This document shows, in pieces, positions 2,163-63,370 of a DNA stretch of 64,000 nt. Made by a program: the position numbers and the translations under genes. The notes beneath the pieces are model-generated. The model made no database searches. It was not told where the DNA came from and was given only the letters and a program-made list of their open reading frames with translations. The stretch is from Lophium mytilinum (taxonomy: Eukaryota; Ascomycota; Dothideomycetes; Mytilinidiales; Mytilinidiaceae). How positions within the stretch are numbered: position 1 is the stretch's first letter; the number at the start of each line of letters is the position of its first letter. The DNA is taken from assembly GCA_010093605.1 (NCBI GenBank), contig MU004189.1:1929834-1993833 (forward strand), in the 5' to 3' direction.

Positions 2163-3775
2163 CTATTTACCAACCTCTTTCCTCGCTGCCTCCCCGGTTG
2201 ACCGACTCCTCTCACTCCCCGAGCTCCGCGCCCCATCACGCTCAGGATCATACTCCTTCCTAATAGGCACAGCCGTCGGATTCGCCTCCTTCAACGACCC
2301 CACATTGCTCTTCTTCACCAACCCAGCCTCCTCGTCGCTCTCGTCCTCCGAATCGTCCTCAACCGTAAACGCGTCGTCCTCGCTTCCTCTCCTAACAGCC
2401 TCCGCATGCTCATCCCCTTCCTCGGCCTCGTTCTCCGCGGCTGTGTTCCGCTTATCGTCCTTGATGAAGCCGTCGATGATCCAGTACTGCATCGCGTTCA
2501 TGATCAGCGGGAACACGAGCATCACGAATGCTACTTGGAGGCGCTTGTTTCCTTCGGTCCAGCGCAGAGCCCAGTCGCCGACCCACGCGATCCAGGGGAG
2601 GAGCAGGAAGAGGGCGAAGACGCAGAGTTTCATGCCGAGGAGGCCGAAGAAGTAGATGAAGGATTGCTTTAGCCACCATGTCGCGCGGGGTGGGTTGCCG
2701 TAGTTGCCGGAGCGGAGAGACGAAGGGGGGTTGGCGAGAGGGGTGTAGGAGAAGGCGATGTGGAGGATACGGAGAAGGATGACCAGGATGGGGATACCGA
2801 GGGTGGTCTAGTAGAGAATGTGTTAGCTGGATTTGCTTTGAAAAGCCCAGGAGTTGGACAGACATTAGACTTACATCAACAGCTATGTTCAATAGGTAGA
2901 ACGAGCACGGGTTTGGCTTCTTTCCTCCATCGTCCTGCACCGCGTTCTTCGCTGCCGCCGCAACGTCAAAGCTGCCAGACGAAAGCATCGACATGAACAA
3001 GTTCGCAATATGTAGCAATACTGAGCCGAAAACTTGCTTCGAAGCGTCAAAGAACCAGATCTTCAGCGGCCGGCGGGGCGTCTCGCGCCATCTTTTATAC
3101 ACAAGGACCGAGATAGCAAGCAAGCCCAGCGCGCCCTGGATAATCAGCGCGAAAGGGCCCAAAAGATGGCATTCGCCATTATCGTCGCCGCCTTCGTCTT
3201 CTTTAGGGCCCTTCTCAGAGCCCGTAGGTGTCGGTTCAGGTACCGCAACCGACCCTGTCGCAGAAGCTGCAGAAGACGGCGACGGCGTCTCAGCCTTCAC
3301 ACCTTTGATTCCCATAAGCTCTGTTTCAAAAACTGCCAAACTGTTAGCTCTTGCCCAACTCTCCCCATTTGAGGCATGAGAACTCACCCAGCACAGCGTC
3401 CGGCCCAATCACCCCTCCCGCTCCACTATGCCCATACCCCAGCTCCGGCGGGATTGTTAATTTCCTCCCCTCCCCAATACACATATCCAGCAAGCCCTGA
3501 TCCCATCCCTTGATCACCTGCCCCGCCCCCAGCGTGAACGTGAACGGTGAACCGCGGTCGTAGGAGTTGTCGAACGGTGTGCCATCGGTGAGGGTTCCGC
3601 GGTAATTTACAGCGATCTTGTCGCCGGCCTGAGATTTACGGGTACACGTTGCAGGTTTCGTGACATCGATTATGAGGTCCGCGGCGATGGAGAGAGGCAA
3701 CGAGGTGAGTAGTAGGAGGGTCGTGAGGGAGGTGGAGATTGGGAGGGCGGCGAGGGCCCGAATGAGGGGACGCAT
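2163..3775 (-). CDS. Fused FKBP prolyl isomerase and STIMATE-type membrane protein
   Basis: Exons 3775-3388, 3332-2875 and 2807-2163 (introns of 55 and 67 bases, GT..AG) give a 496-residue protein. Residues 1-32 form a signal peptide. An FKBP domain follows to about residue 138, with [23 protein letters not shown] and a final strand VFETEL encoded across the first splice. A Pro/Ser/acidic linker (143-182) leads without a stop into [10 protein letters not shown], the start of a STIMATE/TMEM110-type domain (PF12400; yeast YPL162C relatives) with [21 protein letters not shown] and five hydrophobic segments, then an acidic/serine-rich tail. FKBPs catalyse prolyl cis-trans isomerisation, here presumably in the ER lumen; animal STIMATE acts at ER-plasma membrane junctions. 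Five membrane segments would place the FKBP in the lumen and the tail in the cytosol (inference). The only ATG near the junction, at residue 136, lies inside the last FKBP strand, so two separate proteins would need internal initiation. Confidence 0.85.
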
Positions 3776-5069: not shown

Positions 5070-8000
5070 CTATTTATGCGGTTTGGGCACCATAAACTCA
5101 TGCGGCTTTCCTTTCTCCTTCGGATCCAAAAACTTGGTCAAGACCAGTGAGAGCTCTTTGAACTCGACCGGTTTAGTGACGTACGAGTTAAAACCAGCCT
5201 CGACGCACTTGGAGTAGACGTCCCCGAGGACGTTCGCCGAAAGAGCAATAATCGGGAGATGTGCATAGTTCATCTTATGTTCCCAGCGTCGAATTTCCTT
5301 GCAGGCTTGATAGCCATCTTTGTTGGGCATATGGAGATCACACTGCAACAAGTGTGAGCTTTTGACTGAAGTTGGGCTAGGAGTGGTGATACTAGGGGCA
5401 GTAGACGGCTTACAAGAATGATGGAATAGTATCCCGGGGGCTTGGAGAAGACGCTTTCTGTACATTGGACGCCATCAACGACCGTTTCGCTTGTGACGGA
5501 GACCTTGGACAGAAACTTCAATATAACCTGCGACGTTGTTAGCCTTTTGGAAGAGTTTCGCCGTTTCGAGTTTCCATACGGTCTGGTTGATATAGTTATC
5601 TTCCACGAGAAGTACCCTGAATCCCCTGTTGCCCAGTCTGTTCTTCAAATCCTCGAACACCAACTTTTGTGTAACCGCTACTTGCTGTGCACTGTCCTGA
5701 TTTCGATCTGTACTCAAATCGCGCTCCTTCTGAGGATCAAAGATGACAGCGAACTTCGATGGCTTCAGTGGCTTGTAGATAAATCGAAGTCGCCGATCCC
5801 GTACGAGCTTCTCATAGTCGTATTGTGGCGCATCTTTCATAATCTCACGCTTCTGCATAGTATCTGAGATTATGATCATTGAAGTTGACGAGTGGAAGGA
5901 CGGCTTGAAGACCAGATCCATGAAGGCAATGACGTCTGAAGAGAGAGATAGCACCAGAATAACGTGAGTAAAAAGGACGGGGTCCTCGCCGCCGATGAGT
6001 TCGCGCGCCTCTTCTAAGCTTGCCTTGGAAGTGACCTGGTGAGGTACAGCCTTCGGCAGCGTTCGCTTGACGTGCTTGACAGTTGCTTCTCGGCTATATT
6101 TCAAAGGGCATATGACCAAGATTGAGTACATTGGCGGTTGCAAAGTACTTCCAAGTGGAGAAAGACTTCGATTAATGGGCTTGGCGCGCACAGTCTCGGC
6201 GGAAACGTTGGTCTCAATAGACTCTTCCGAGTCTCCATGTCCACCTACACTCCCGCTGCGGTCTGGTAGAGCAAGCTCAATTGGTGAGTTTTTGATAGCT
6301 GAGTCTGGCATGAAAGATGATACTGAGGATCTCTCTGATCGAAGACTGGTTTTGCCAGTATAGATCGATGGGTCAGAGCTGCCAGACGACAGAGATGGAG
6401 AGTCGCGCGATCGCTCTGAAGAAGGCAGACTCGGAGCAGGGGACTTGAGGGATGGCGATTCGGTAAAGCCGGTGTGTCCAGGAGATTCGGCAGCGAAGCG
6501 CTGCATTCGTGCCACAGTATCTGTATGGGCTGCAGAAGGAGGCAAAGGTGTCCTAGCAGGTGTGGCCACCATACTCGTGCCTGGCGTGGCGATTGGTGTC
6601 GGAGGACGATCATCTCCATGTGGTAATCCGAAATTGATAGTGAAGGTGAAGTTCGAGCCTTCGTTTGGTACACTAGTAGCTTTCATCTTTCCTCCATGCA
6701 ATTCGACCAACTGCATGGAGATGGCCAGGCCAAGTCCAGTGCCACCGTGCTGTCGAGTGCTGCTGGCGTCAATCTGACTAAATCTTTTGAACAGGAATTC
6801 TGCCTCTTTCTTTGTGAAGCCGCTGCCTGTATCGATCACCTCAAATTGCACCACGGTTTCATGATCATCGCCATTCTTGGGCTGGTCGGCTGAGAGCTGG
6901 CATCTTACAAACACTTCGCCTTTCTCAGTGAATTTAATCGCGTTGCCGATAACGTTTAGTAGTACTTGACGTATTCGGAATCGATCGCCCTTGACCATCG
7001 ATGGTACTTCTTCCTCGACAAGATAGTTGAGTTCCAGTCCTTTCCCAATAGCTAGCGCCGAGGTAAGGTCGTTTACTTCTTCAATAAGTGACGGCAGATG
7101 GAGCCAGTCCACATTTAACGTAATCATGCCAGCTTCGACCTTTGACAGATCTAGTATGTCGTTTATAAGATCACGAAGTCCTTCGGTGCTGTTTCTGATG
7201 ATATTGACGTGTTCCATTTGCTCAGAACTTAAAGGACTGTCGAGAAGGAAGTTGACCATCCCAGTGATGCCGTTCAAAGGAGTTCGAATCTCATGGGACA
7301 TGTTGCTCAGGAATCTTGACTTGGCGTCCATAGTCTCTTTCAAAGTCTGTTCCAGCAACTTGTGATCGTTGATGTCCGTGCAAGTGCCATACCAAGTCTC
7401 CTCATTCCGGGGCTCTGAGGAGACTGAGTTTTCCAGTAATATTCGTACAAGATGCCATCGATAATTGCCGTCCTTAGAACGAAGGCGAACCTCGGTCGAG
7501 TAAGAAGGCCGCCCGTCAGCATCTTTCGTAATCTTTAGAATACCCTCGCTAGCTAGCTTAGAGAGTTTCGCTTGCGGCATTTCCATAGTTGCTGGATGCC
7601 CACCAGGGCTAGTGACGGTGTTGTCTGTCTCCGAGGAATTATCCGACGAAGATGAGTAACCACGAGCATGTTCAATGGGAACTGAGACTGGGACGTTCGC
7701 GGGCGCAGAGCCGTCTTCGTTCATGACTGGCAGTCTACACTTGACAATGTCATGGGGATGGACGTGTTCCAGGAACCCAATCCCTAATGTCTGCGCTTCT
7801 TCCTGGCCAGAATAAGACAACCATTGTGAGTTGCAAAAGGTGATACCTCGCTTGTTTGTTACGACGAAGACAATTTGGGGACTTGAGTTAGCAAGCGCTC
7901 GGTATTTGGCTTCAGAGGCAGCGGTTTCCTGTTGGCGAGCGGAGTTGGCCTCAGCAAGATGCTGTTCATGAAAGTCCATGTTTGTTCCAATCCAGTGAAC

Positions 8001-11000
8001 AATTTGCTGCTTCTTATCTTTTAAAGGAGCAACTCGGACGTAGAACCATCGGTATTGTCCATCGAACCTTAATAGGCGAACCTTTTGTTGAAGTTGCTGT
8101 CCGGTTCGAAGGGACTTGTTCCAGTGGTCAATGTAGGCCTCCCGTTCTTCGGGGTGTATGGACTCATAAGGGTCGCTGAGAGCGTGCTGTGAGTCTCCAC
8201 CTCTATAAACCATATACTTTGAATTGAACCAAGTCATTGCTCCAGTACTCGGTTGAGCTGTAAATATTTGTACCGGCAGGGAATCGATAATGGTTCTCAG
8301 CAACCGCTCTGACGGAGGTGGCATTGATGGTAGATCAATCGTATCGCTAACGGAGCCGCCTCTTGCGTGACCTGGTGTGTAAGTCGGCCCAGGCGTTTGT
8401 GGAATTCCTGGAACTGCTGCAGAAGGAAGCGACTGGAAGGAAGAGCTGAAGTCAGCCCCATACGAGTGCAAAAGGGAATGTGGCTTGCGGTCAGCTGTGT
8501 TTGGAGGCTGAAAAGACAGTGTACGAAGCCTGCGAGGAGACAAAGGCTGCGACTGGGCTGTGCTTTGGTCCTGCACATCAGATGAAATGGTCCTGGGCTT
8601 TGGCTTTGGGTCGCTCCTAGGAGTTGGAATGTCATCCTCTCCAATATCATGCGGTGTATTGCTAGTCGCTTTCTTTAACGTAGAGCGAGAATCGACCGCT
8701 GAGGAGACTTTCCGCAATATCTGTTCCTGTGGCGGTTGGCCTCCAGGTGTCTTCGCCGGGGTAGTATAAGCCGCACGTTTCTTGGAGTCAAAGTAACTGT
8801 CGACAAGCTCTGATCCTGTAACATGGCCAGGGGTACCTCCAACAGAATGCTTGCTTGAAAATCCCGCCGCAGATGGATCCCAGCCTGGTGTTCCCCCAAG
8901 TGATCCACCGGGACTTTGCCTTGATCGACCAGAATAATCTGACGGACTTGTGACGCTTCCAGCTTGTGAGCCGGCCACATCGTCAAGATCGAAACGCATG
9001 AGATCATCTAGACTTTCTGGGCCATGAATAGGTGCAAATCCCACTTGGTGTCCCGACATGTACCGACGATGGCGTATCCCAGTCGCTTGCTGATGCGCAG
9101 TCGTATATTGCCAAGCATTTGAGAAAGAAGTTGCCAGATGTGGCCCGAGAAGCTTTAGTGAATTGGTGAGGTTCTGGGGATACGGTACGGTGGAAGACAG
9201 TATCGAAAGAATCGCGATGGGAGCTTTCCGGAGCGGCTGTGGGTCTTGCAAAATGCTGCCGGTTGACCTACGAGACATGGTGGGGGTTTGCGACGGCGTA
9301 TTGGGATCAAGCGGTTGCATTGTCTGGGAGAGTATAGGATGTATGAGCGGAATGTGCGTGACCGTGCTGGCCTTGTCAACCCCAATGGCTTCCACTTGGC
9401 TAAACCGAGAATAGTCTTGCGTGGTTTCAGTGGGGTTGAAAGTATCGTCATCAACATTAGTTTCCGCAGCGAAAAAAGGGTTTTCCGAGGAATCTGTTTG
9501 GATGGCGGGCGAAGGGGCTGGTGATTGTGCCCATGGCGAGCTAGGAAACTGCTCGTACTCTTCATACTGCGGTAGCAATTTGTTCTCGCTATTGTTTGCG
9601 TGGCCGGGTTTACCGCGAAGAGCAGCCTTTTGGAACTCTCTTGATATGGGTGGATAAGGGGTAGTCCTGCTTCCGTGCTCTTCGGTATCTTCTGTAGAGT
9701 TTTTCCGAGAGTTTGGTGTCGACACTGAGTAATCTCTGGTTAACGTCACCAACTTGCCCCTCTCTAGAACTCTGTTGATGCCCGCAGTATCAATCAGAGG
9801 GTCCGACTCATGATCTAGAGCTCGCAGTACAGGGAAGACGATGGCATAGGGTTCCGTAGATGCGTCTCCTCCATGGTTAGAGAATTCAGGGTCGCTGAAC
9901 GAGGGGTCTCTGCTTGAAGGACTTTGAAAGAACGGCGATCCGTCGAGGGGAGAGGGCGTGATTTGGCGTAGGGGATGTTCTCCTCGCGGCGTCGTGTGTG
10001 GAGCGAGACTCGCAGTTCTGATAGGTCCCGGTGGTCTCGTTGGTGGGCCTGTCGCTTTCTCCACGGGTGCTTCCTTTCGTTGACGCTCATAACCAGCGAA
10101 CGAATGCCGGGTCTCTAGTTTGGGTCTGCCTGTAGGAAGAAATAGCGCTGAAGGAGCTTTGAGAACAGCCTCTAGACTCGCGGAAGTGTGACTTCCATAG
10201 CTATCTGAGCTAGACTTGGAATCCTGTGTTGATGAATGCGACGGTTTCAGAACTTCGCCGGCCTGGTTGAAGCTCGTCTTTTGTCCCCAGGGCACATTCT
10301 CGATGTCGGAGGCGTCGGCCGGTACCGCAAGCGTAGCTCTCTCTACGCCGTACCATTCCCTGAGAATTGATATGACAGTACTCCACCATGCTTTTAGGCC
10401 AGGCTCGGACCCTAGCTGTAGGGCCAAGTCGTAAAGGCTCGGAGAAGGATAGCGGGAGTCTTCTTCCATTGAGTACGCGCGGTAGATTCCGGTAGGTAGA
10501 AAGGTATCTGCGGTGGCGAGAGGCGTACTGGAAGCCGACGGGGATATGCGTTCGCGTGGCGCAGATTGGTCCTTTGCGTTGCTGGCGCCTACCGTGGGCG
10601 ACAGGCTAGTGAAGGGCTGGTGGAAGGCGTAATTCCATGGCTTTGGAGTGCCGGGCACGGTGGGAAACGGATATGAGGGCGTACGCAGAGGTTGCACGCC
10701 AGGTGTCGGTGGCACGCTGCCGCGGATGGTCTTGGCGGACTCTGTCGACTCGGACGATGAGGTGAGTCCAGTGGCCAACGGGGTGGCGAAGGAGGCCTCC
10801 AGCGTGGGCGACAGGCTCGATGCCGGCTCCTCTCTGATGGGCGAAACTCTGGTGCGCTGCCCCGGGGTGCCGCCGCGACTGTTTGCTGCACTCATCCGTG
10901 CGCGCTGTTCCTTCTGGAGCATTTTAGCAGCAATCGCCGCACGGAGACGTTGGAGCTCGACCTCGTCTGGCGAAGGCGCCTTGTCTGTCACTCCGCCGTC

Positions 11001-11270
11001 TGATTCACCACTCTCCGATTCCATCTGACTTGAATCCTCCGCAGCAGCGTCGCTCACTTCACTCTCGGTCCCACTTTCGTCATCGGGGCGAGGCTGGCGG
11101 GGGTTGGGCGACGCAGTGTCTTCCGGGTCGGTGATTTCGGGCGGGGTGGTTCGAGGCCAGCGGAACAGCAATGGGCGGTTTGGTGATGGATGCGAGGGGT
11201 TGGTGGGCGAGCCAGCGGGAGGGTCGTTGGTGGTGGAGAGTTGCCTCGAGGACTGAGATATCTCCTTCAT
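5070..11270 (-). CDS. Hybrid histidine kinase (PAS-PAS-HisKA-HATPase-REC)
   Basis: Exons 11270-5580, 5527-5414 and 5342-5070 (introns of 52 and 71 bases, both phase 0) encode 2,025 residues. Roughly the first 980 are low-complexity Ser/Pro/Thr-rich sequence. Two PAS domains follow (near 985-1100 and 1120-1290; GQYRWFYVRVAPLKD and GNYRWHLVR are typical ends). The dimerisation helix carries the phospho-accepting His1326 in NMSHEIRTPLNG. The ATPase domain has NVIGNAIKFTEKGEV and GGTGLGLAIS. A C-terminal receiver begins RVLLVEDNYINQ, with the phospho-acceptor Asp1937 in CDLHMPNKDG and the conserved Lys in VTKPVE. All residues for His-to-Asp phosphorelay are present, so it should signal through an HPt protein. 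There is no membrane segment, so it is likely cytosolic; its signal is unknown. Assignment to a numbered fungal HHK group was not attempted. The start is the first ATG of a very long open frame and could lie downstream. Confidence 0.93.
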
Positions 11271-14134: not shown

Positions 14135-17100
14135 CTAGGTCGCGACATACGTCCCGCTCGAGATGCGTCGCACGCTCTGCACCTCCTTCCACACAGCCGC
14201 CGGGCTGGCTGGCGCCGCGCTCTCGTCTGCGAACGGGTCCGCTTCTACTTCCGTCTTGCCTTCGGTGTCCAGCTGGCTGACACTCAACCCACTGCCCATC
14301 GCTGCAGCGTGCTCGCCGCTAATCTCCCATCGCGCCTCTACGTTGCCAGGCTTCGCCTCTCCATCCGTGAAGAAGCGCGCGCGGATCTGATGTGCGGGTT
14401 GGTCAGGTGATAGCGTAACGTCGCCTAGTCGCCAGTAGATGAGTGCCTTGTCGCGGGAGAAAGTTCCGACGGGTTTAGATTGGCAGTGGGTTGTCTTGAC
14501 ACCGGGCTCGAGGCGCATGACTAGGACCACGTTGTGCAGGGTAATGCTGGAGGACGACCCGAGTGGGAAGGCTGGGTTGAGAGAATAGCTCAAAAGCGCT
14601 GATGTATGCGCTGTCTCCACTTTCCAAGCCGGGGAAAGCATTAGTGGAGCAAAGGTTGCCAGATTGGCGCTGTCGAGATGAACCTGGTAATGAAACGCCA
14701 CAGACGTCTTGGTGATCCTGGCCAGGTCGACGCTGTAATTGCCGGGACTATCGGCGACTTGCTCGATGAAGGCTGGATTCGGTGCTACTTTTTCGAGTAC
14801 TGGGAAGTTTTCCAACCGAATGCTCTCGGTGCCAAAGGGGCTGGACAGATCGAGTGGATTAAATGCCAGTGCAACTTGACCGATGACCATGGCCTTCGTA
14901 ATAGTGCCTTGCTCAAACCACGTGCTCACAGTCTCTACGAGCGACGAGTTCAATCCTGGGCCGTGCAGGTCTGGGTGTTTAATAGTCATGCTACCGGTGC
15001 TACTAAGAGAGCGGCCTGATCTGATAGACTGCGTATCCGAAGATGCATGGTCTTCTCCAAGGAATCTGTGGCCGAGTTTGAAGGGAGAATGCGGTGGCGC
15101 TATCGCTGTCGCTGTTGGTGGTGATCCTGGCAAAGACGATATGCTGGCGTTAGGTGTGACAATGGGCGCAGGGGCCGGCGCGGACGTTGGAACGGGAGGC
15201 GAAGCAACAGCGGGGATTGGCATAGGCGGAACAGAGCTTTCCCCAATGCTGGTGAGCTCCGGAGTCGGGGGGTTTGGAATGAAGATTGTGTTCCTAACAT
15301 CCCTACGGCCCCTTACCGTTCCGGTTTTCCTCGCTGGAATAGCTTGCTGTTTACTGTTAGTCGAGTCCGATAGATCGTGCTTCGATGGTCCTGACTCACA
15401 GCACGAAGAGTGTTGGCGACGTTGGCTAACGCTGCGTCCGCGTCGCCGTCCTCCTCTTGTATAGGGGCATTCCGTATGTCGACTTTGAATTGTGGAGTGC
15501 TGGCTTCATTCGCCCTGTAACGGTTATTAATACGCTGTTGTGGAATGTGCAGTCATTAACTAACAATTGAGCATCGTGCTCAGCCTGAGAGATTGCGTCT
15601 AATGTAGTTGGCGGTAATGAATACCCTTCTTCGTCCTTCTGGGGCTGTAACACTGATTAGCATGTTACTCTCTGGGCCGCGCTCCAGTGGAATTACCTCA
15701 GGTTGAACGGCGGAGCTGGTCATGGGCTGCAAAGGTTCCTGCAACTCTGGTATAGACTCGGGAGGGTTTCCGTTCGAAAAGCCAGCCGAGCTAGAGGGAG
15801 GATCATTGGCTAGATCAGGCGTTGTCCCATTTGGCTTATCGCTACTAGATCGTCGCGTCTGTACCGGGGAGCTCGAACCATCTGATGGACGCGGATTCGA
15901 CATATTTGTGGACAACCTTCGCAAGGGCGATGAAGGTCGCTCTGGTAGTGGCTGTGAACCTTCTTTGGCTTTACCCCTGTGTCCGAACAATGAACTGGTT
16001 CCAAGATTCGATGAAGACTTCCTCTCTGGAGAAAGACTACGGCCATAGGGATGATTGCTCTGTCTTCGGCGCCCTAGAACAGTACCAAATCTCTTGAGAC
16101 TACTTAAACCCCCGTGCTTCGCCTCTTGGACTAGCCGTATGATTAGCTGAGTGGTGGATGCACCGAGAGTTAAAAGCTGTTACCTGAGCCACTTCTTTGG
16201 CTTGACCCATCGTCTGTTTGAATAGATGGTGTCATGGGCGGAGGAGGGGGAGCGAGGTTTCTTGATGGGGAAGAAAAATTGCTCGTTTGTCGCGGAGTCT
16301 TTGGCTTCCCGCCTTGTGTTCTCAATGCATACGTCTTGATCTCGTCTGCCGTTTCGACATTTAGCAACACATTCAGTGTTTCCTCCGCGCTGACCCTGTT
16401 GCGTTCCACCTGGTCGACCTCATGGGTCTGAAACTGGGTAAGGACATCCCGCAGATGGTTGAGCCGGCTCTCATCCACAGCTTGTAGTTTCTCAAAGACG
16501 TATGGCGCTTGCGAGTCCCATTGGGAGGTGGCGTTCTCAACCTCAGTAATCGCATTGGCCACTTTGCCTGCCGGAGCCTTTGCGCCCTTGTCCCTCAGCC
16601 TTTCCGACTTCTTCCGCGCATTTTCGATTTCCTTCGCCATGGCTGACAGGTTACCGGAGATGTTCGACATGGCCTGCATTTCGCGATTGCTCGAGGCAAA
16701 TTCTCGGAGGGGGCGTTCGACATCGGCTTCAATCTTCTGCGCGAGCTGGTGGTGTGAGTCGGCGAGAGCTTCGGCGGACCCGACAATCTTCTGCCATGGT
16801 GTTGAGAAAATGCTGGGACAACAAGTCAGCGAGGCGTGGGGAGCGTAGTGGAAGCAACTGACCCGAGATCGGAGGAATCATCGGGAGGGTGTTTGTTCGC
16901 GAGCTTCCGCAGGCCTTGGACATAGAGCTCCTCCACCCGGCGTCGTTCCTATTGAAGCTTTAAGCGCCGACCGTCTAACACGGGCACGGGAAGCCACCCA
17001 CCTGAAGCCAATCCGCGATGTCGGAGTTCAGCTTGCTGACATTGCGGATCCGGTCGTGTAGTACATTCACTGCTTGGGCGGGCTGGAGGGACTCCTGCAA

Positions 17101-20048: not shown

Positions 20049-21469
20049 ATGGCCTTCTTCTTCAGGAACAAGCAGAAGAGCTCGATAGAGTTGACGAGGT
20101 CAACGCGGGAGCTGGTGCTAAGGCTGGCGACGGAAGAGAAACCGAATCCCAAGGTGGGACTCCTGGCCGAAAGCTAGGAATGCGGGCTAATGTGAGACTG
20201 CAGACAGAGGAGGAGCTCGCTCGAAATCTGGCACAGATGAAGATAATGATCCAAGGCACGCCCGGTACCATACACAATATTTCATCATATCTGCCATTTA
20301 TTGCACTCCCCCTCATATTCCCAATCCCTTGCCCCGCTTACCCTTCGACGTACGCTAACAAACGCAGAGGCGGAAGTCAGCCCGGAAGTCCAAGAAGCCC
20401 TCGTTCGAGAAATCGAAAGTCAAGATCTCATAATTCTGCTGGCGGACAACATCTACAAGTTCCCCTTCGAGTCCCGGAAGGATACCCAAGTCATCTTCTC
20501 CACCGCCTTCCGATACAAGCCCCCCGGAGCCAACGCCCCTGAGCCCCCAGTTCTCCATAACGTCATAAGATACCGGCCCGAGGTCATAATATCACTGTGC
20601 AAAGGGTATGATCGGAGGGAAAGCGCAATGCCGTGCGGGGGCGTTCTCCGAGAGGCTCTCAAGTTCGATGCAATTGCTGCCCTCATACTTTACGACGAGC
20701 CTACTCCGGATGGAAAGGTCCGAGAGCTGAGCACTATAGACCCTGGTGTTCCGTCGACAGGACAAGGCATTTTTTGGAGGTTTTTCGATTGGATAGACAA
20801 AGGGGCATTCGAAGTCAGCGCGGATGCATTCAATACCTTCCGGGTAGGTTCCTTCGCCATTTCGACATTGGATCGCACAATTTCCACGCTAATCCGGTAT
20901 CCATTGCTAGGAAATTCTTACCAGGCACAAATCGTTGATTTCTAATTTCCTGCAAGTTAACTTCACCCTATTCTTCGAAAAGTACAACGACGTACTTGTC
21001 CAATCAGAAAGCTACGTCACCAAACGTCAATCTATCAAGTTGCTCGGCGAGATACTGCTCGATCGCTCCAACTACAATGTTATGACGACCTACGTCGACT
21101 CAGGAGACCATCTGAAAATCATCATGAAGCTCTTGCGAGACGATAGGCGAATGATCAACTACGAGGGCTTTCATGTTTTCAAGGTTTGTTTCTCCCTGAG
21201 ATATATTAAGACCTCTACCTTCTGGCAAACTTCCCCGGCCATGATTCCGCCTGCTTACACTCCCATAGGTCTTTGTAGCCAACCCGAACAAATCAGTTGC
21301 GGTCCAGCGCATCCTGATCAGCAATCGCGACAAGCTCCTACGCTTCCTCCCTACCTTTCTCGAAGATAGGACGGAAGACGATCAGTTCACCGACGAGAAG
21401 AGTTTTTTGATCCGGCAAATCGAGCTCATGCCCTCGGCTCCCGTACCCACTGCAGGGCAAGCATCGTAG
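20049..21469 (+). CDS. hymA: Mo25 family protein (HymA)
   Basis: Exons 20049-20153, 20204-20264, 20368-20843, 20911-21183 and 21269-21469 give 371 residues, the usual Mo25 length. The protein starts MAFFFRNKQKSS and carries ARNLAQMKIMIQGTPE, RYRPEVIISLCKGYDRRESA, CGGVLREALKF, EILTRHKSL, NFTLFFEKYNDVL, YVTKRQSIKLLGEILLDR and VFVANPNKS, hallmarks of the armadillo-like Mo25 fold. Mo25 is a scaffold that activates STE20/germinal-centre kinases and acts in the RAM/MOR morphogenesis pathway; in Aspergillus nidulans HymA is needed for conidiophore development. The ATG at 20,049 was chosen because it begins the conserved MAFFF sequence, although the frame is open further upstream. Confidence 0.95.
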
Positions 21470-26950: not shown

Positions 26951-27914
26951 CTACACGATCGTCTCCAACTCTCTTGCATATCCTAGTGTGTTCTCGATGA
27001 CTTGATCGCTTGTGACGAGGATATCCCGTTCTAGCCCTAGCATCTCCTCGGCCTGCTGGGGGAAGTATATCCGGCTGTCCTTGACGACCCAGCCAAGCTC
27101 GTGCGCGAACTTGACCACGCTGCCTTCACTGTCGAGGAAGAGGAGACTCTTTGCGTCTGAGACGGGGATGGAGGGGTAGGCTTTCTCGGAGCAGGAGGCG
27201 ATTTCTTTGCGAATTGTGCCGATCAGGACCTGTGAAACATAAACATTAGCTTTAGCCATAGTGAGAAACCACGCCTCTCTACCCGCCAGACCCAAACAGC
27301 GAATCGAGTCCACAGGAGGAGAGAGAGCTAAGCCTCATTGTACATACCTCAGAAAACAGGCCAAACTCCTCCGCTGGCACCCTCTCACTCTTCGTCTCGC
27401 CCCAAACCCGATCATAGCTGCCCTCCATAAGCGCCTGCTCCAGCCGTATCGGATACTGGATAAACACATCATCCTCCAGCCCCTTCCCGCCCTTGCCCCC
27501 CGTCCCCTGGATCCCCGCCGCGACCTCCAGCCCCTCCAGCGTCGTGTGGAACCCCGCGTAGTCCCCGTCGCTCAGCAGCAGCAGCAGATACAGCCCCGTG
27601 ATCTTGCTCGCCTGGCTCGACCCATCCTTCGGCAGCACCGACGTTGGCAGCGCGTAGAACGGCTGCAGCTGCTGGAAGTAGCGCGTGAAGCCCTCCGGGT
27701 CCTTGAGCCGGATGCTCAGCAGGGCGCCCAGCTCGAGGGTTTCGCGGGCGGCGATGAGGTGCGGCCGGGGGGTTGTGGGTGCGGGGATGAGGGCGTTGAG
27801 GTGGAGGAGGGCGAGTTTGGCGCGCGAAAGCAGCGATGGTGCGGAGGTGTATTTGTGGGATTGGAGGCAGCCGTGGAGTTGCTTGAGCGTCTCGCGGAGC
27901 TCGTGGTCGGCCAT
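26951..27914 (-). CDS. RPN12: 26S proteasome regulatory subunit Rpn12
   Basis: Exons 27914-27348 and 27229-26951 (118-base intron, phase 0) give 281 residues, close to the yeast protein. The ATG at 27,914 starts MADHELRETLKQLHGCL in a good context (GAAATGG); the frame is open upstream but that part is Ser/Pro-rich and unlike the family. The C-terminal part carries EVLIGTIRKEIASCSEKAYP, VSDAKSLLFLDSEGSV and WVVKDSRIYFPQQ, the PCI-like CSN8/PSMD8 module. Rpn12 is a lid subunit that helps join lid to base and take up Rpn10. Its 3' end faces the uL11m gene. Confidence 0.95.
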
Positions 27915-28473
27915 TTCGGCGGGTGTGTTGGGTTTCGGGAGTGTAGGAGAAGGGAGATGGGGAGTCGCAGTTGTAGAAGAAGACTGTGAAGCGGAGGGAG
28001 GAGGTGATGAAGCTGCTGTGGATGGGGGGTTTGGCGGAGCTTGAAGCGGACGTGGTGGTAACGAAGCAGTGATGCTCGAACGCTCGGACCTTGGGCTCAG
28101 CGAAATCCATGGCAAACCACAACCTTCGAATATACGGTGGCGAATAAATGGACTGTTCATTTTGCGATACTACATGGGGTGCAAGAAGAGGGTACTTCAG
28201 TCTTCTTGAAGGTCTTTTTCAGCTCAGGATCTGCCTAATCTAATGTTTCCTCGTTGTGACAGGCAGATGACATGGTCACAGGTTCTCAAAGTCCACCACT
28301 TGGATACTTCTATTCACCTTACACAGCCTCATCATAGGTCTGTCCGAAATTTTGTATCACGAAGGTGAAAGCATAGTGTAAGACTTCTGTTTGACCAGCC
28401 TGATGCCTAATGGACTATCCTGGGCATCACGGAGTACAACATAATACCGACTGAGCTCTATTCAACCTCTAGT
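27915..28473. other. Intergenic, Rpn12 upstream region
   Basis: About 560 bases between the Sld2 stop and the Rpn12 start, both on the minus strand. It should contain the Rpn12 promoter. Open frames over the Rpn12 leader (27,915-28,160) are extensions or overlaps. No PACE-type proteasome element was confirmed. Confidence 0.45.
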
Positions 28474-30117
28474 CTATCTCCTTCGTCCAAAGCGGCCTTT
28501 GCCTCCCTTCTGTTGATCTTTACCCTTGATCTTTAGCCTGCGATAGTTCGCGTTCATCGTAGCGCCCGCTTTACGGACAGCTTTACTGACAGCATTTGAG
28601 CTCTTCTGTGCTGTAACAGCCTTCGTCTCTGTTTTAGCTTCAGGTTTCAGTAGGTCCTTAGCTTTTGCGAGTTGAGTCTTCCGCTTTTTAGGGGTATGAG
28701 AGTCGTTACTGAAGTCTGAAGCAGCGCCGTCATCTGAAGACTCTTCTCTAAACTCATCCTCTAGGCTCTGGGTTTTTGGGCCTTCCTTCGTTTGTGTCTC
28801 TGCGATTGCATCTGGACTATCGGAGTCATCTTGTACAGCTGGCTCAGGAGACTTGGACTTGCGCCTGGCAGCGACTGGACGCACTGTTCGATGTTAGAGA
28901 AGCTTTCTGGGCATACACAATCATGAAACTTACTGTTCACTCTCCTCGTAGTCCGCTTCTGCCCCCTCTTCTTCCACACCTGTCGCGGATTCCCATTTCT
29001 GTCCAGTGCACCTAATTCTTGCTGTGTCTCATCTTGATCCGACTCTTCTAACGCATCCGGACCAAGCTTCATTGGAACCTGACTATCCTCCACTAAAACC
29101 TTCGGAGCCGGTTTCGCTTTAGGTATAGAAATGCCCGCAGCCTCCATCTCCATCTCCCGCATCATCTCTAACTCGTCGTCTAGCCTTTCGTCTTCTTGCC
29201 TCTCCGCCTCCTCTTCCTCCCTTCTCGCCTCCTCAACTCTCTCTTTCTCCTGATTCTTCAGATTCTGTATCATACTACTCAGACTCCTTCCAAGTCCTCT
29301 CCGCTTCCACGGTGCAGGTCGCGGCGTCGACTCATCCTCTTCAGCAATGATATCAAGCGGCCGAGTATCGCGCCGTAGGAACATTGGCGTCGAAAGATGC
29401 TTCATCGTCGAAGAAGGCGTGCCCTCCTCGTCTCGCTTCCGCTTTTTCGGCGTCGCGAACTTGTCCAGCAAGAATCTTTTCCCTGTGGAAAGTGGCGTTC
29501 TGCTTCCTCGCGCATGCTCCTCGACCGAAAGCCCATCTTCGGATCCACCGTGGTCCTTGCTCGGCGTCTGCATCACGTTTGTTCCCACATCACCCAACAC
29601 CGTCCTCTGCGCTTTGGTCGGCGTATCCGAAGGGAGAAGATCGAAGAGACCAAGAACCAGTCCATCTTTCTGCGGGGTGGGTCCAATCTTCGAACGCACA
29701 TGTACTGGCGTAAAAAGGATTGAGGCCGATCCAGGAACATTGGCAGGGTCTGCGTTCTCCGCTTGCTCGTGTCTTGCGGGGGTGGTGGCTAGTTTGAAGA
29801 GCGGTTTTGAAGGGGTTCGGACTTCATCGTCAATCGCTTTGCATTTTCGCGGTGCTTTCGAGGGCGTTTGTGGGCCGGCCTTGCCTGCAAGAACATCTCG
29901 GAGCTTATTGTACTCCTTGTATTTCTGTGCTATGACCTCGTAAGTGCATGTTTCGTGGGTATGTGCATGTCAACGTACAGATGCTGGCGTTCGCTTTTAT
30001 GTCCAGGCGGCCGGCTTTGCGTCCATTGTGTGCAGCAGCGAAATCCTTTTCCCACAGCTTCAGCTCCTGCTTTAGAGTACTACAGCGGTCATTCGGGTCG
30101 GCATTGGTGGTGGTCAT
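28474..30117 (-). CDS. SLD2: DNA replication initiation regulator Sld2/Drc1
   Basis: Exons 30117-29979, 29929-28934 and 28883-28474 (introns of 49 and 50 bases) give 514 residues. The conserved N-terminus is present: LKQELKLWEKDFAAAHNGRK, then across the first splice SQKYKEYNKLRDVL. A long middle contains many Ser/Thr-Pro sites (GPTPQK, TPTKAQ, TPSKDH, TPLSTG, TPKKRKR), expected of a protein that CDK must phosphorylate before it binds Dpb11. A coiled, Glu/Arg-rich stretch (EKERVEEARREEEEAER) follows, then a basic tail ending NANYRRLKIKGKDQQKGG and GRFGRRR, typical of the family. It acts in loading Cdc45/GINS at origins. A possible upstream ATG at 30,177 would add a short unconserved extension. 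Confidence 0.9.
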
Positions 30118-37838: not shown

Positions 37839-39637
37839 ATGGCCGAAGCTACCTTCTACATCGACGAAGACGTCGGCGAAGACACCCCCTCCCAGCAAGG
37901 CACTGAGTCCTCCCCATACAAGACCCTCGGCTTCGCTGTCCTGACCCACGGCGACTCACCCAAATTCCTCGCCCGCAAATCCACCTCCGGCCACGTCCCC
38001 GAAGGCTCCGATGCTTCTGCCAGGCTAGAATGGAAGCCTGCAGCCAAGGCTGCGCTTAAGAAGGCGAAGAACTACGCAGCTCAACACCAGAAGAAAGCAG
38101 CCCGAGAACAAGAGCTACTCGTGCAGAGGTCGAAAGAGGATGCAGACCGGAAGAAGGTGCTTGATGATGCCAAAAAGATTGTGCTCGAGGAAGACAAGAG
38201 CCTACCAAAGGCAATCCGGATCAAGCTGGACAACACGGACCCAGACACAGTGAAACTAGGCGACGGCAAGGATGTCAAGGGCACAAGGGTGAGAATCTTT
38301 GGAAGAGTACACCGAGAGAGGCGGCAGAAGGAGAACATGTTCATAACGCTGCGCGATGGCTATGGCTTCATGCAGGTCATCCTCACGGGACAATTGGCCA
38401 AGACCTACGATGCCTTAACCTTGACCCGCGAGTCGAGCATGGAGATCCTGGGAGAGCTGCGCGCGGTCCCAGAAGGAGCGCATGCCCCCAACGGCCGTGA
38501 ACTTCATGCCGATTACTACAAGATCGTCGGGAAGGCTGCTGGCGGCGACGAGGCCATCACTAACCGGGTCTCAAAAGATACGGAACACGCAACACTTCTC
38601 GATCTGCGACATCTCACTCTTAGAGGTGAAACCGCTTCGAAGGTTATGATCGTTCGCGATGCCGTCGAGTTTGCATTCAACTTTGTCTACAAGGAACTGC
38701 GGATGCGCAAAGTCAGCCCTCCGGCCCTCGTCCAGACTCAGGTGGAAGGTGGAGCGACACTCTTTGGTTTGCCTTACTACGACGAGACCGCATACCTTAC
38801 CCAGTCTTCGCAACTTTATCTAGAGACTTGCCTACCGTCCATGGGAGATGTCTTCTGTATTGAGAAGTCTTTCCGCGCAGAGAAGTCCTTGACGCGCCGA
38901 CATCTCGCCGAGTACGCCCACGTTGAAGCGGAACTCGACTTCATCACCTTCGACGACCTCCTAGAGCATCTTGAGCACGTCATGTGTCGAGTCCTCGAGG
39001 TCACGCTCTCAGATCCGACCATCAAGCAACACATCCTCGACCTCCACCCTGAGTTCAAGATGCCCGAGCGACCTTTCATGCGCATGAGATACAGCGAGGC
39101 GATCGATTGGCTAGTGGAACACAACATCGATTTCGAAGAGGAAGACAAAGACAAACCGCCGCGACCACACAAGTTCGGCGACGATATCGCTGAAGCAGCT
39201 GAGCGCAAGATGACTGATATTATCAACCGCCCCATCTTCCTCACCCACTTCCCTGCAGAGATCAAGGCTTTCTACATGCCTAAAGACAAAGAAGATCCGC
39301 GTGTCACGGAGAGTGTTGACTGTCTAATGCCCGGCGTTGGTGAGATCGTGGGTGGGTCTATGAGGATGTGGGACTACGACGAGCTTATGGCGGCGTTCGA
39401 CCGAGAGAAGATCGACCCGGCGGCGTACTACTGGTACACTGATCAGAGGAAGTATGTGCCACATCCCCTGCAAGCATGTAATGGAATCGTAGCTAATCTA
39501 ACAACTCTAGGTACGGCACCTCTCCCCACGGCGGTTATGGTCTCGGCTTAGAGCGTTTCTTGGCTTGGCTATGCAAGCAGCACACCGTCAGGGACTGTTG
39601 CTTGTACCCTCGTTACTTCGGTCGCTGCAAGCCCTAA
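37839..39637 (+). CDS. DED81: Asparaginyl-tRNA synthetase, cytosolic
   Basis: Exons 37839-39451 and 39511-39637 (59-base intron) give 579 residues. An N-terminal extension of about 140 residues, Lys/Ala/Glu-rich, precedes the OB-fold anticodon-binding domain ([20 protein letters not shown]). The class II catalytic core has [12 protein letters not shown], motif 2 in [20 protein letters not shown], and motif 3 [13 protein letters not shown] in exon 2. The C-terminus [10 protein letters not shown] is the form found in AsnRS rather than AspRS. It charges tRNA-Asn in the cytosol. The splice near the C-terminus is required: reading through the intron loses motif 3. Confidence 0.95.
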
Positions 39638-50122: not shown

Positions 50123-51106
50123 CTAATTGGGCACGAACTGCCACATGTCCCAAGGGCTCCGCTCTTTGAGCCACTGCCAATCCATAACCGAGTGCACCTC
50201 GAAAGGCGCCTGATGCATCCAGTCATGAACCAAAACTCCGACCGGCAAATACAGCCTCGTCCTAGGGAAGTGCTCATTTTCCACCGCCATTTCCCGCAAC
50301 AAATCAAGTCCTTTCTCTTCCCTCGCCGCACGAAGTCCCTGATAGCAATGGACCCTGATTTCCAGCTCACGTAAACCTGGTAACAACGGCAGCATATCCT
50401 GAATACTCTTCCAGCCATCCTTCGGCGCCCCCAACGAGGGCAACTTCAGATCAAGATGAAAAGCCCGCACGTCATCACGGCTCTGCGGGGTAAGCCCATC
50501 CACGAACCGCTCCAAGGTGTAAGGCGACCGGAAACTGAAAATGTTCGACGAGTAGAGGAATTCAATGGATTCGGCGTACACTTCTCGGCAAGTGCGCAGC
50601 AGCTGCGGCGACACCCGGTCGCCGCCCCAATCGTACTTCGCGGTGTCGCAGTTCCAGTCGCGCTGCCAGGAACTCATCCCGCGCTCCGGGTACGTGGCGG
50701 CGCCGGGGCAGGACGCGCAGATGCAGCGGGTATGGCGCACAATCTGATTCCCATGTCTGAGGACGATGTGGACGTTTGAACATCCAAGAACTAGTTCGTA
50801 TATTTCTTGGCGGAGCTCGATTGGGAGGCGGAAGAAGGGGGATTGGGGCTGGGGAGATGGCTCTTTGGATAATAGAGACGTTGAAGCGTGTGGTGGGATA
50901 GAGACTTGGTTCCTTCCATCGGTTCTTGGTCTGTTTGGGGACTCATTGTTTTCACTACCAGAAAATAGCCGCCGGAGTGGATTGACGGTTTTGCGGGCCA
51001 CCTTTCGGTAAGAGGATATCTGGAGATCGACGGGAGCCATCCCGCCGATGCCTGGGTGCTGCCTTTCATAGTTCCGGCGGGCCTCAATTGAGTGATCGAG
51101 CCGCAT
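50123..51106 (-). CDS. DUF7730/2EXR-like protein of unknown function
   Basis: A single-exon 327-residue protein. FFRLPIELRQEIYELVLGCS is the F-box-like start shared by many Pezizomycotina proteins of this group, followed by a histidine/cysteine patch (HIVLRHGNQ, RHTRCICASCPG) and LLRTCREVYAESIEFLYSSN with FSFRSPYTLERF. These proteins form large lineage-specific families in plant-associated fungi and have no established biochemical role; an adaptor role like an F-box protein is conjecture. No signal peptide. The start at 51,106 is the first ATG; MAPVDLQ 22 codons in is an alternative. Confidence 0.82.
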   Translation of the reverse strand: MRLDHSIEARRNYERQHPGIGGMAPVDLQISSYRKVARKTVNPLRRLFSGSENNESPNRPRTDGRNQVSIPPHASTSLLSKEPSPQPQSPFFRLPIELRQEIYELVLGCSNVHIVLRHGNQIVRHTRCICASCPGAATYPERGMSSWQRDWNCDTAKYDWGGDRVSPQLLRTCREVYAESIEFLYSSNIFSFRSPYTLERFVDGLTPQSRDDVRAFHLDLKLPSLGAPKDGWKSIQDMLPLLPGLRELEIRVHCYQGLRAAREEKGLDLLREMAVENEHFPRTRLYLPVGVLVHDWMHQAPFEVHSVMDWQWLKERSPWDMWQFVPN

Positions 51107-52845: not shown

Positions 52846-53360
52846 GATGATACGGGCTGATAGCACACTTTACAATGTTAAGGATGTCGTGTCAGGATGT
52901 TAGGAGGCATGAGGGTCAGTCTTGCACAGTAAAAGGAGAAACTCGCTCTTCACCTCCAAGAGCACTCGAGGCAGGCACGGCCTTGGGAGACTCTCATCCT
53001 CCCGTGCCTCTATGCTTGAGAGGGAGTGGCAAATCCTCGCCTAAAGAGGCATGTCGGGAGCAGTAAATTGATTCGGTGGTTGCACTTGAAAGGGGCGACA
53101 GATCCGAAACGCCATTGGCGGCCATTTAATGAGGTCTGCGTCGTCCACCGCCATGTGTGGTTTGACTGGCCTGCATTATAGTGCGTAGACGCGGCCTAGG
53201 CCTCTGTAAACATGTTATTTCTGCGTGTTCAATGCAAGACGGAGGAGTTTTGGAGACAGAATGCGAGGAGGACACATGGATGCTAAGCGCCCTAATTATG
53301 TAACATTTCCCAGCACCACTCGGGACTGATTTATCGGGTGCGAAATAGCGTAGAATCCTT
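52846..53360. other. Intergenic, esterase upstream region up to the compositional border
   Basis: About 515 bases of normal composition containing the esterase promoter. Short frames have no domains. Composition changes sharply at its right end. Confidence 0.45.
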
Positions 53361-53399
53361 AGCACATTTTTCTTAGCGTTCCTTACTAAACTTTATATA

Positions 53400-54975
53400 A
53401 GGATTATAGGGAGCACTATCTATTTAAATGTTAGCCTTTTAATATCCCCCTAATAATAATAAGTAAGGTTTCTTACCTATACTATATAGTTACTTACTAA
53501 TATTTTCTTAGTATTTTAGTACCCCTACTAACTACCTATACTAATAGAAGATATATTTTCTTTATATCTAGTAACGCGCCTACTAATACCCCCCCTATTT
53601 AAATAAGCCTAAGAACTACTACTATAGTAAGTATAGTAACGGGTAGTAGAAAGTCTACTACTCTAAAGGTAGCGTATAAGCCTTTAAAGCTAAAGGCTAC
53701 TATACTAAAGAAAATACTACCTCTAGTATATATATAGATACCTTTTATAAAGGCTAGAGTATTAGTATAGTAGAATAAGTTACTAGATATACTAAGTAGC
53801 TCTTTAAGAGTTAAGAGGGGGCCTATAAAGATAGCTATAAGTAGTAAGAAAAGCTCTAAAAAGGTAGCTATAAGTAGTAAAAAGAGCCCTAAAAAGGGCT
53901 CTAAGAAGGTAGATCTAATAGCTATTAGTTCTAGTAGTATTAAGAGTACTACTAGTACTAGTAGTACTATCTAGTACTATATTAAAAAGAAGAAAGAGAA
54001 GAAAAAAAAGATTAATAACTTTTTAGTTACTCTATTCTATATTCTCTATATTAATAGAAAGAAGGTTAGTAATAAATAACTAGAGAACTCTATATACTTT
54101 ACTCTTAATATAAAGAATCTAAAGTTTAAGCTAAATATAATAGTATTAATAGCGCAGGTTAATAGTAACTATAAGAAGAAGTATAAGATTATCTAGTATA
54201 CTACTATTATTTATATAATAAAGGGGACTAGAGGCTTTCTTAGCTATAATATAGCTAACTTTTTACTCTTAGAGTTCTAGCGGGTATTCTATATACTTAA
54301 TTTAAAGTAGAAAGACTATCTAAAGGCTACTATTTCTACTATATTTAAGTATAAGTTAATTTATAAGCCCCTGCCACCACTATTAAAGAAGAGAAAGAAA
54401 GTAGAGGTACTATTATTCTTACTAGCTAGTACGCTATCTATAGATAGGTTCTATACTAGGTATTATAGTAATTATAGCGGAAAGCTATTAAAGTAGTAGG
54501 TAGTCTATTTAGAGTTACTTTTAGTATCTAGCTACTAGTAAGTTAGTATAATATTAGTATATAAGTATACTAATAATACCTATACTAATATAGGTAACCT
54601 ATACTTTATTAATAATAATAAGTAGTACTATATAATACTCTTTAAATACTATAAGTTATAGATAGATATAATTACTTAGAGGAATACTATAATCTCTTAG
54701 CTATCTAATAAGATATATAAGAACCTTATAAGAGAGGGTCTAGTTAAAAGTAACTACTAGCGCACTATAAAGTTAACTTAGGTATAAAAGTCTAAAAATA
54801 AGATAGCTAGAATATTTAATATAATAGAGCACTTAATAAAGCTCTAGATATAGTAGAAAGATATAGAGATAGTAGATTAGATAGTATTATAAAGCGCTTC
54901 TTCTTAAAGCGCTTTTTCTTCTTCTTCTTTTTTTTTTATTTAGCCTTAGTATAGCCTTTCTCTATAGGCTCTATA
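53400..54975. other. Unidentified RIP-degraded relic left of the LTR element
   Basis: About 1.6 kb of highly mutated sequence of unknown origin. A 33-bp direct repeat lies at 53,832-53,864 and 53,865-53,897, and Lys/Arg-codon-like A/G runs cluster at 53,800-54,010. A short palindromic AAAGCGCTT motif occurs twice at 54,893-54,925, followed by a long T/C run. No family assignment was possible. It may be part of an older element into which the LTR retrotransposon inserted. Confidence 0.4.
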
Positions 54976-55197
54976 TATTATAGCATAAACCTAGAATTAT
55001 AGTAATTATATACTAAGATTACATGTAGCCCCTTATATAACCTAAGTAAGACGCTAGCCCGAGGCGCTAGGCCGCGGCCTATACGCTGGCGTTAAACTAT
55101 AACCTCTTAAGAGCTCCTAGCTCTCTCTCTTCTTCTTAGCTTAGATTTTTATAATAGTTAATATACCTTATTACTTATATTATATTAGCCCCCTATA
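54976..55197 (+). repeat. 5' LTR of the Gypsy-type fossil
   Basis: 222 bp, starting TATTATAGCATAAACC and ending AGCCCCCTATA; it matches the 3' LTR at about 95 percent. It is preceded by CTATA at 54,971-54,975. Confidence 0.85.
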
Positions 55198-55646
55198 TAA
55201 TCTAAGCTTACTCTTCTATACTTAGAATCTTATTAATTTTTTCTAGAACTCTATTATAAGATCTAGGCGTTTTTACTAAAATAACTTAAATACTAGCCAG
55301 CCTAGCTGTATAGCTACGCGCGGCACCTAAATCTAACCTAGTAGATAATCTAGCACCGCCTCCTTTAAATAAGCTAGTTAATCTAATAGCTAGGCTTTAA
55401 GATAATTTAAAGACTCTAGGCGCTATAAGTAGCGCTAACCTAAATACTTTAGAATATACTTCTATAACTCTATTAACCGCTAGCAATAAGAAAGCGCGCT
55501 GCACTACTTAACTTGCGCGCTTTTAAGGTATAGTAAAAGGCTCCTCTATTCTAGCTATTATTTCTAGCTTCTAGTATAGAACTAGAGGACTAATTTTAAA
55601 TATCTAAGAAGAAACCTAAGCCTTCTTATAGACTATAGATAATACT

Positions 55647-55705
55647 TAGCGCGCTAACACCTAGCGTGCTAATGCCTAGCGCGCTAATACCTAGCGCCCT
55701 AAACG
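55647..55705 (+). repeat. 15-bp tandem repeat inside the LTR element
   Basis: Four consecutive units of the form TTAGCGCGCTAACAC, CTAGCGTGCTAATGC, CTAGCGCGCTAATAC and CTAGCGCCCTAAACG. The units contain GCGC palindromes, which survive RIP because they lack CA context. Probably a coding minisatellite of the gag-like region. Confidence 0.6.
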
Positions 55706-58230: not shown

Positions 58231-58282
58231 TAACCCTAACTCTAACCCTAACTCTAACTCTAACCCTAATTCTAACCTTAGC
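58231..58282 (+). repeat. 6-bp tandem repeat (TAACCC/TAACTC) inside the LTR element
   Basis: About nine hexamer units alternating TAACCC and TAACTC. TAACCC equals the fungal telomere repeat (complement TTAGGG), but the units are mixed and lie within the element between the protease and reverse transcriptase regions, so a degraded coding repeat is more likely. Confidence 0.55.
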
Positions 58283-61200: not shown

Positions 61201-62269
61201 TAATATAGGTTTAAAGTAATACCTACGCGCGTATATCTACTACCTATAGAATAACTAGGTAAATCTAATTATATTTACTAAATTTAAGGCTAACACTAAT
61301 ATTAATTAGTCTACTAGCGTGTTACTATTTAAAGCTACTAAGGGCTATACACCCTATAGTAGCTTAGAGCCGTTATTTTAAGATATTATTATTCTAGGCC
61401 CTAAGCGCTAAGGAGTTAACGCAGCTAAGAAACTTATTACGCGTATTTATAATCTATAAGAGTTCCTTAAAGAAGAACTCTATTAGAATTAGTCTAAGAT
61501 AAAGGAGCTAGCTAATTAAAATTAGCTGCCCGCCTTTAAGTTTAAAGTTAATAATATAGTTATACTAAATACTAAGAATATTTATACTATATAACTAAGT
61601 AAGTCCCTTAACTATAAGAACCTTAGTCCCTTCTATATAATATAAGTTATTAATAATATAGCCTATAAGCTAGAACTTTCTAAGTCTATAAAGGGAATCT
61701 TTCTAGTATTCTACCCCTAGCTACTTTATTAAATTAATAAGACGCCTCTTCTAGAATAATATCTAGAACCCCTACCTACGCTTAAGATAGAAGAAGATAG
61801 CTTTATAGGTTAGTTCTATATTAATAAAGTCCTTAACTTCTAGTTTAATAGCCGCTAACTAAATCTATATATAGGTAAGAAGCCTTACTTAGTCTATAAG
61901 ATAGCCTAGACTAGATATAATAATACCTAGCCTAAATAGAAGCCCTATTAGAACGCTAATAGATGTAATAAACTCCTTATAGAATACTACGCAAAATATA
62001 GTCTTAAAGTAGAACCTTATCTAATATTTAGCACGTCTAAATAGAAGGTCGCGAAAATAATAGGTAAAAGTATAAGCGCTACTACAGCAATAGTAGGCCT
62101 ATAGAATATTCTTAGCACTAGCCTAAGTAAGTATAAATAGTAACCTTATTAGGTAGCTAAGTTATCTTATAAGAAGGCTATTCTATATAGGTAACCTAAA
62201 GTAGAACTCTAATAGGTAGAAGCTAATAATAAGCCTTAGGTTAATTTATATAGCCCGCTTATAGCGCTT

Positions 62270-62350
62270 AAGAATAAATATAAGAATAAATATAAGAATA
62301 AAAATAATAGAAATAATAGAAATAATAGAGATAATAGAAATAATAGATAT
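62270..62350 (+). repeat. Short tandem repeats near the element's 3' end
   Basis: Units of AAGAATAAATAT (three, from about 62,271) are followed by repeats of AATAATAGA (about six). They lie upstream of the 3' LTR in the element's terminal coding region. Confidence 0.5.
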
Positions 62351-62487
62351 AGTAAGACTATAGATAATAGTAAGTATATATATAGTAAGGCTGCATAAGT
62401 AGCTTAATAGAAACGGGATAGAAAGAATAGAGAAGCTATAATATATTATAAGCCTTATAGAACTTTAGCTTTTAAAGAGGGGGGTAG

Positions 62488-62709
62488 TATTATAGTATAA
62501 ACCTAGAATTATAGTAATTATATACTAAGGTTATATGCAGCCCCTTATATAACCTAAGTAAAACGCTAGCCTAAGGCGCTAGGCCGCGGCCTATACACCG
62601 GCGTTAAACTATAACCTCTTAAGAGCTCCTAGCTCTCTCTCTCCTTCTTAGCTTAGATTTTTATAATAGTTAATATACCTTATTACTTATATTATATTAG
62701 CCCCCTATA
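62488..62709 (+). repeat. 3' LTR of the Gypsy-type fossil
   Basis: 222 bp, starting TATTATAGTATAAACC just after the polypurine tract and ending AGCCCCCTATA. It is followed by CTATA at 62,710-62,714, the same 5 bases found before the 5' LTR. Confidence 0.85.
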
Positions 62710-62714
62710 CTATA

Positions 62715-63360: not shown

Positions 63361-63370
63361 TTTATAAAGT

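Follow-up and report, generated by a model that had tools for sequence, protein, structure and literature searches.

A gene of the fungus Lophium mytilinum joins, in one continuous spliced frame, an FKBP-type prolyl isomerase domain to a membrane part of the STIMATE family. The gene lies at 2163-3775 on the minus strand of the 64,000-nucleotide stretch of contig MU004189.1 (assembly GCA_010093605.1) that we analyzed, hereafter the window, and all features of the gene given below are on that strand. From the features of its sequence, we consider it probable that the gene encodes a single fused, membrane-tethered protein whose FKBP domain is luminal.

Gene structure and the two domains

The gene has three exons, and its spliced frame begins with the ATG at 3775 and runs uninterrupted for 496 codons until it meets the stop at 2165-2163. 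Exon 1 (3388-3775) encodes the N-terminus and the FKBP domain except for its last strand, VFETEL, which is found in exon 2 (2875-3332) together with a linker, membrane segments 1 and 2, and the start of segment 3. Exon 3 (2163-2807) encodes the remainder of segment 3, segments 4 and 5, an acidic tail, and the stop. Both introns are of the GT-AG type: intron 1 (3333-3387; 55 bases, phase 1) carries the signals GTGAGT...GCTAAC...CAG, and intron 2 (2808-2874; 67 bases, phase 0), which falls within membrane segment 3, carries GTAAGT...GCTAAC...TAG. By a scripted count, the branch-point-like GCTAAC stands 12 bases ahead of the intron end in intron 1 and 16 bases ahead of it in intron 2. Retention of intron 1 leads to a stop after 143 residues, with the last FKBP strand missing, and retention of intron 2 to a stop after 422 residues. 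We found no unusual fold in the RNA of intron 1 (z -0.23). A first-pass annotation of the window, made by a model from the letters and a list of open reading frames, had proposed an in-frame fusion of the two domains through this 55-base intron, a linker running without a stop into the STIMATE part, and a product of about 54 kDa. These proposals are borne out by the continuous spliced frame, by Pfam matches to both domains, by the position of the first in-frame stop past the FKBP domain, which is the end of the STIMATE part, and by a calculated mass of 53.6 kDa.

The N-terminus (residues 1-31; 3683-3775) is predicted from hydropathy and by eye to be signal-peptide-like, with hydrophobic windows within residues 4-38 and a cleavage site that we placed, by eye, after S-I-A. 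It is followed by a match to the Pfam family FKBP_C at residues 44-135, with an expectation value (E) of 3.9e-34 and 117.3 bits against a cut-off of 21.1, covering profile positions 1-93 of 94. A Pfam scan of the 496-residue protein at E 0.001 returned no family beyond FKBP_C and STIMATE. The domain is identical at 46 of 75 aligned residues to the FKBP2 of structure entry 4nnr, which we take to be the human protein, and Cys44 and Cys99 align on both of its cysteines; in the FKBP2/FKBP13 class, these two cysteines form a disulfide. Identity to the first domain of a wheat multi-domain FKBP is 41 of 70 aligned residues. When solved structures are ranked by summed domains, the wheat multi-domain FKBPs 3jym and 3jxv come first and bacterial FKBPs second, with the FKBP2 structures 4nnr and 2pbc close behind. 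We call the domain FKBP2-like, as the first-pass annotation did, chiefly because of the cysteines, the secretory N-terminus, and the identity to 4nnr. The core pocket residues Y26, F36, D37, R42, F46, V55, I56, W59, Y82, and F99, in what we assume to be FKBP12 numbering, were all found as motifs, and isomerase activity of the domain is predicted. A single-sequence structure model of the 143-residue exon 1 frame was uninformative (mean predicted local distance difference test, pLDDT, 40.5). The window contains no second FKBP or STIMATE, the best other tblastn rows having E values of 0.089 and 0.31.

The C-terminal part matches the Pfam family STIMATE (PF12400) at residues 272-398 (2460-2907, with intron 2 inside) at E 1.4e-43, scoring 148.8 bits against a cut-off of 22 and covering profile positions 1-123 of 124. 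After residue 185, hydropathy places five segments at approximately residues 190-208 (segment 1; 3097-3153), 230-248 (segment 2; 2977-3033), 276-294, 333-351, and 373-393, the fifth being composed of two overlapping windows at 372-390 and 375-393. Segments 1 and 2 coincide with helices at 187-213 and 219-248 in a model of exon 2, which was built from the single sequence without an alignment and is of low confidence (mean pLDDT 58.3). The first-pass description of a complete five-segment STIMATE domain holds as to the five hydrophobic segments, of which the Pfam model spans only the last three; segments 1 and 2 are putative parts of the family, animal STIMATE presumably also having them ahead of the Pfam domain. 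No solved relative of the STIMATE part was found among the 10 rows obtained at E up to 10 from solved structures; the best of these, a vitamin K-dependent gamma-carboxylase at E 0.38, was taken as a chance match.

The linker and the number of products

The linker, with bounds of our choosing at residues 137-182 (3175-3312), contains 8 acidic residues (D/E) and 4 basic ones (K/R) and is neither helix nor strand in the low-confidence exon 2 model. It accounts for the 138 bases between the FKBP and STIMATE parts. The absence of a stop over this distance is unremarkable on its own, since 3376 of 20000 composition shuffles of the linker (17%) were also open, as were about 22% of 1752 intergenic stretches of 138 bases. 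Codon usage is more telling. Read in the FKBP frame, the linker has a score of 0.18 nats per codon, which exceeds those of 86% of 558 in-frame training stretches, and the scores of its neighbors in the same frame are 0.12 for the FKBP exon 1, 0.10 and 0.15 for the STIMATE pieces, and 0.18 for the tail. Of 1752 overlapping stretches of intergenic sequence, 1 equalled the linker score. Because the five intergenic regions were picked by eye, with an overlap between two of them, and the stretches also share sequence with one another, this ratio is not a probability. The codon score compares the codons of 14 open reading frames of the window (6166 codons) with those of their other frames; of 27 frames of at least 180 amino acids, 20 were scanned against Pfam, 15 matched, and 14 were used, with 27279-28160 excluded. 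These training frames were delimited mechanically and may extend into introns. Additionally, the last FKBP strand and the first membrane segments share one exon, and no stop codon closes the FKBP domain. Collectively, these features make a fusion gene credible.

An open linker, being no rarity among the shuffles, could also be left by two adjacent genes if a local mutation or a mistake in sequencing or assembly had erased the stop of an FKBP2 gene and hidden the start of a STIMATE gene. However, a gap of 138 bases would leave too little room for a normal 3' end, a promoter, and a 5' leader, the window contains no runs of N, and codon usage is gene-like across the linker in the FKBP frame. We therefore judge this explanation to be very improbable. 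We also rejected as an intron an additional GT...AG pair at 3302-3136 (167 bases, with a GTGTGA donor and a branch-like site), because splicing there would cause a frameshift and leave little of the linker.

The codon evidence from the linker fits equally well a locus with several products, namely the fusion, a separate 361-residue STIMATE protein starting at Met136 (3313-3315), and a short soluble FKBP. Such products could arise from transcripts that start in or below intron 1 or from leaky scanning, and, for the soluble FKBP, from retention of intron 1, which leaves the frame of 143 residues described above. No other in-frame ATG lies between the domains, which makes Met136 a candidate internal start, and the main ATG stands in a weak context, with T at position -3. 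Nevertheless, Met136 itself has C at -3 and directly follows the VFETEL strand, leaving no room for an ordinary 5' leader or an intergenic promoter, and the retained-intron form, deprived of VFETEL, should fold poorly. On balance, we regard several products as unlikely, if worth keeping in mind, and keep to a single fused protein in what follows.

Topology, destination, and possible function

With the end regions cut to 16 residues, 14 lysines and arginines lie on the side of loop 1, loop 3, and the tail, compared with 6 on the N-terminal side. Because of the positive-inside rule, this distribution of loop charges favors placing the N-terminus in the lumen and the tail in the cytosol, in agreement with the signal-peptide-like start and with the orientation assumed in the first-pass annotation. 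The tail (residues 394-496) is acidic, with 30 D/E against 17 K/R, and its last 20 residues contain 5 K/R and 3 D/E. Within this presumed cytosolic tail, the hexapeptide EEAGLV (residues 441-446; 2316-2333) loosely resembles an acidic dileucine signal; it was found post hoc with the pattern [DE]xxxL[LIVM], which also matched 492 of 10000 shuffled tails. Yeast AP-3 uses signals of the form [DE]xxxL[LI] (PMC4649669; statements on published work, here and below, refer to excerpts of the papers cited), and we treat the resemblance of EEAGLV to them as a lead only.

The protein shares with FKBP2 (FKBP13) the FKBP_C domain, both cysteines, and a signal-peptide-like N-terminus, and differs from it in the five hydrophobic segments that follow the FKBP domain. 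In other organisms FKBP2 is ER-luminal (ER, endoplasmic reticulum), being a soluble protein with a C-terminal ER-retrieval signal; we found no retrieval signal of the FKBP2 type at the end of the present protein, RKEVGK. In our model, the signal peptide would be cleaved and the FKBP2-type domain would stand on the luminal side. A flexible linker would connect it to the five STIMATE-family membrane segments, and the acidic tail would face the cytosol. Where an ordinary FKBP2 has its soluble end, the fusion would have the STIMATE part, which would supply an anchor and an address, and the FKBP part would supply the activity. Since the STIMATE part would act as a tether, the isomerase would be held at the luminal face of the membrane to which that part is sorted.

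As to which membrane this may be, the near-full-length match to the Pfam model (E 1.4e-43) relates the protein both to mammalian STIMATE/TMEM110 and to yeast Ypl162c, which we take to be a member of the STIMATE family PF12400, and the N-terminal FKBP domain sets it apart from both. Ypl162c was chosen by the authors of one study as a protein that, in log phase, is found exclusively at the rim of the vacuole (PMC8176713), and it appears on a list of proteins with microautophagy-dependent turnover (PMC12934144). By analogy with Ypl162c, the most likely destination would be the vacuole membrane, reached through the ER and Golgi; taken by itself, we hold this destination to be plausible but a little short of probable. 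At the vacuole or on the way to it, the isomerase would help to fold or hold a putative luminal partner, and between the ER en route and the vacuole as its site of action we lean toward the vacuole.

Mammalian STIMATE, in contrast, resides in the ER, has several membrane segments, binds STIM1, and promotes its activation at junctions between the ER and the plasma membrane (PMC8944985, PMC4835918, PMC7796502); STIM1 is the protein through which it acts, and its tail is polybasic (PMC8944985). The first-pass annotation had carried such mammalian traits over to the fungal protein, describing an ER membrane protein of ER-plasma-membrane contacts in which folding would be coupled to calcium control. 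We give little credence to an ER-resident isomerase of this kind: its appeal lies in the mammalian role just described and in the ER-luminal location of FKBP2 elsewhere, whereas yeast Ypl162c is placed at the vacuole rim, the tail is acidic rather than polybasic (30 D/E and 17 K/R, as counted above), and, to our knowledge, fungi have neither STIM nor Orai.

For the vacuolar, tethered isomerase that we prefer, the nearest design known to us is FKBP11, an animal luminal FKBP with a single C-terminal anchor, which serves here as a comparison of how such a protein may work and of nothing else. The order of an FKBP domain followed by a membrane anchor is the same, the luminal side in our case being suggested by the charge bias, and, unlike the fusion, FKBP11 has no STIMATE domain. 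FKBP11 is a transmembrane FKBP able to bind secretory translocons; there, CCDC134 covers its nominal catalytic site, a burial that according to the authors argues against isomerization of the nascent chain (PMC12804085). With this caution from FKBP11, an anchored FKBP may act as an adaptor.

A more far-reaching version, which we consider distinctly unlikely, is that the fusion is fixed in a lineage of filamentous ascomycetes and has made a STIMATE-family vacuole protein into a receptor-like immunophilin, whose luminal isomerase would act on vacuolar or transiting proteins, or sense the luminal state, and signal through the five segments to the acidic tail. If this were true, fungal Ypl162c-type proteins would have a function tied to the folding of luminal proteins, and the ordinary FKBP2 and Ypl162c of other fungi would be predicted to cooperate. 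More generally, by the Rosetta-stone argument, the natural joining of the STIMATE part to a folding enzyme is a hint that both parts serve one process, and it cautions against transferring the mammalian calcium role to the fungal STIMATE family.

Several observations weigh against a single tethered protein with a luminal, active FKBP2-type domain. Over the whole domain, the bacterial FKBP 4dz3 scores slightly higher than the FKBP2 structure 4nnr (113.6 vs 109.8 bits), and FKBP2 comes ahead of the bacterial FKBPs only when the query is shortened to 79 residues, beginning ahead of the first cysteine; 4nnr then has the top-scoring single stretch (93.1 bits). As judged by eye, the FKBP12 pocket is altered at two positions, again in the numbering we assume (H87 to A and I90 to V). 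At the level of the gene, the weak context of the main ATG must be counted, as must the linker, where third-position GC (guanine plus cytosine) is 0.50, compared with 0.68 in the FKBP part, 0.76 in the STIMATE part, and 0.69 in the tail, and where the plus strand has two of three frames free of stops and one that is coding-like at 0.13. When the end regions are counted whole, the charge bias shrinks to 28 lysines and arginines against 19, with both ends net acidic. The tail has no strict [DE]xxxL[LI] or YxxO match, and a luminal FKBP in the protease-rich vacuole would need to resist degradation. Finally, scans with the STIMATE part found no relative in viral and prokaryotic contig collections, which are silent on fungi.

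Relatives and neighboring genes

In one of the two scans with the STIMATE part, 36 stretches fitted the search pattern and none was confirmed by tblastn; in the other, no stretch fitted the pattern. A degenerate DNA pattern for RP...WF[FL]D.SKQ, which recovers the window itself once, had no match in bacterial, archaeal, or viral contigs, collections that again say nothing of fungi. In the literature, as judged by titles and the first parts of abstracts, we found no report of an FKBP-STIMATE fusion and, mostly from the same kind of material, no statement on the function of fungal Ypl162c-type proteins; one related source covers 69 chordate genomes only (PMC5627428). The fusion may already be present in public fungal annotations.

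The upstream neighbor of the fusion gene (5070-11270, minus strand) is a long hybrid histidine kinase with PAS, HisKA, and HATPase_c domains in an open reading frame of 1931 residues; a receiver-like stretch appears, by eye, to continue in the open reading frame at 5070-5465. Farther along, Pfam matches mark genes or parts of genes for a muniscin mu-homology domain (14135-15223, minus strand), Mo25 (20301-20945, plus strand), Sld2/Drc1 (28761-29699, minus strand), and an asparaginyl-tRNA synthetase (37839-39551, plus strand), all of them ordinary eukaryotic genes. A protein of the DUF7730/2EXR type (50123-51106, minus strand) adjoins an AT-rich block at 53001-64000, in which G+C drops from about 0.51 to 0.24-0.38; given the dinucleotide ratios that follow, the host is probably one of the filamentous ascomycetes whose genomes contain such AT-rich blocks. 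Per kilobase of this block, TpA/ApT is 1.53-1.97 and (CpA+TpG)/(ApC+GpT) is 0.08-0.51, a composition that we take to be the usual mark of repeat-induced point mutation.
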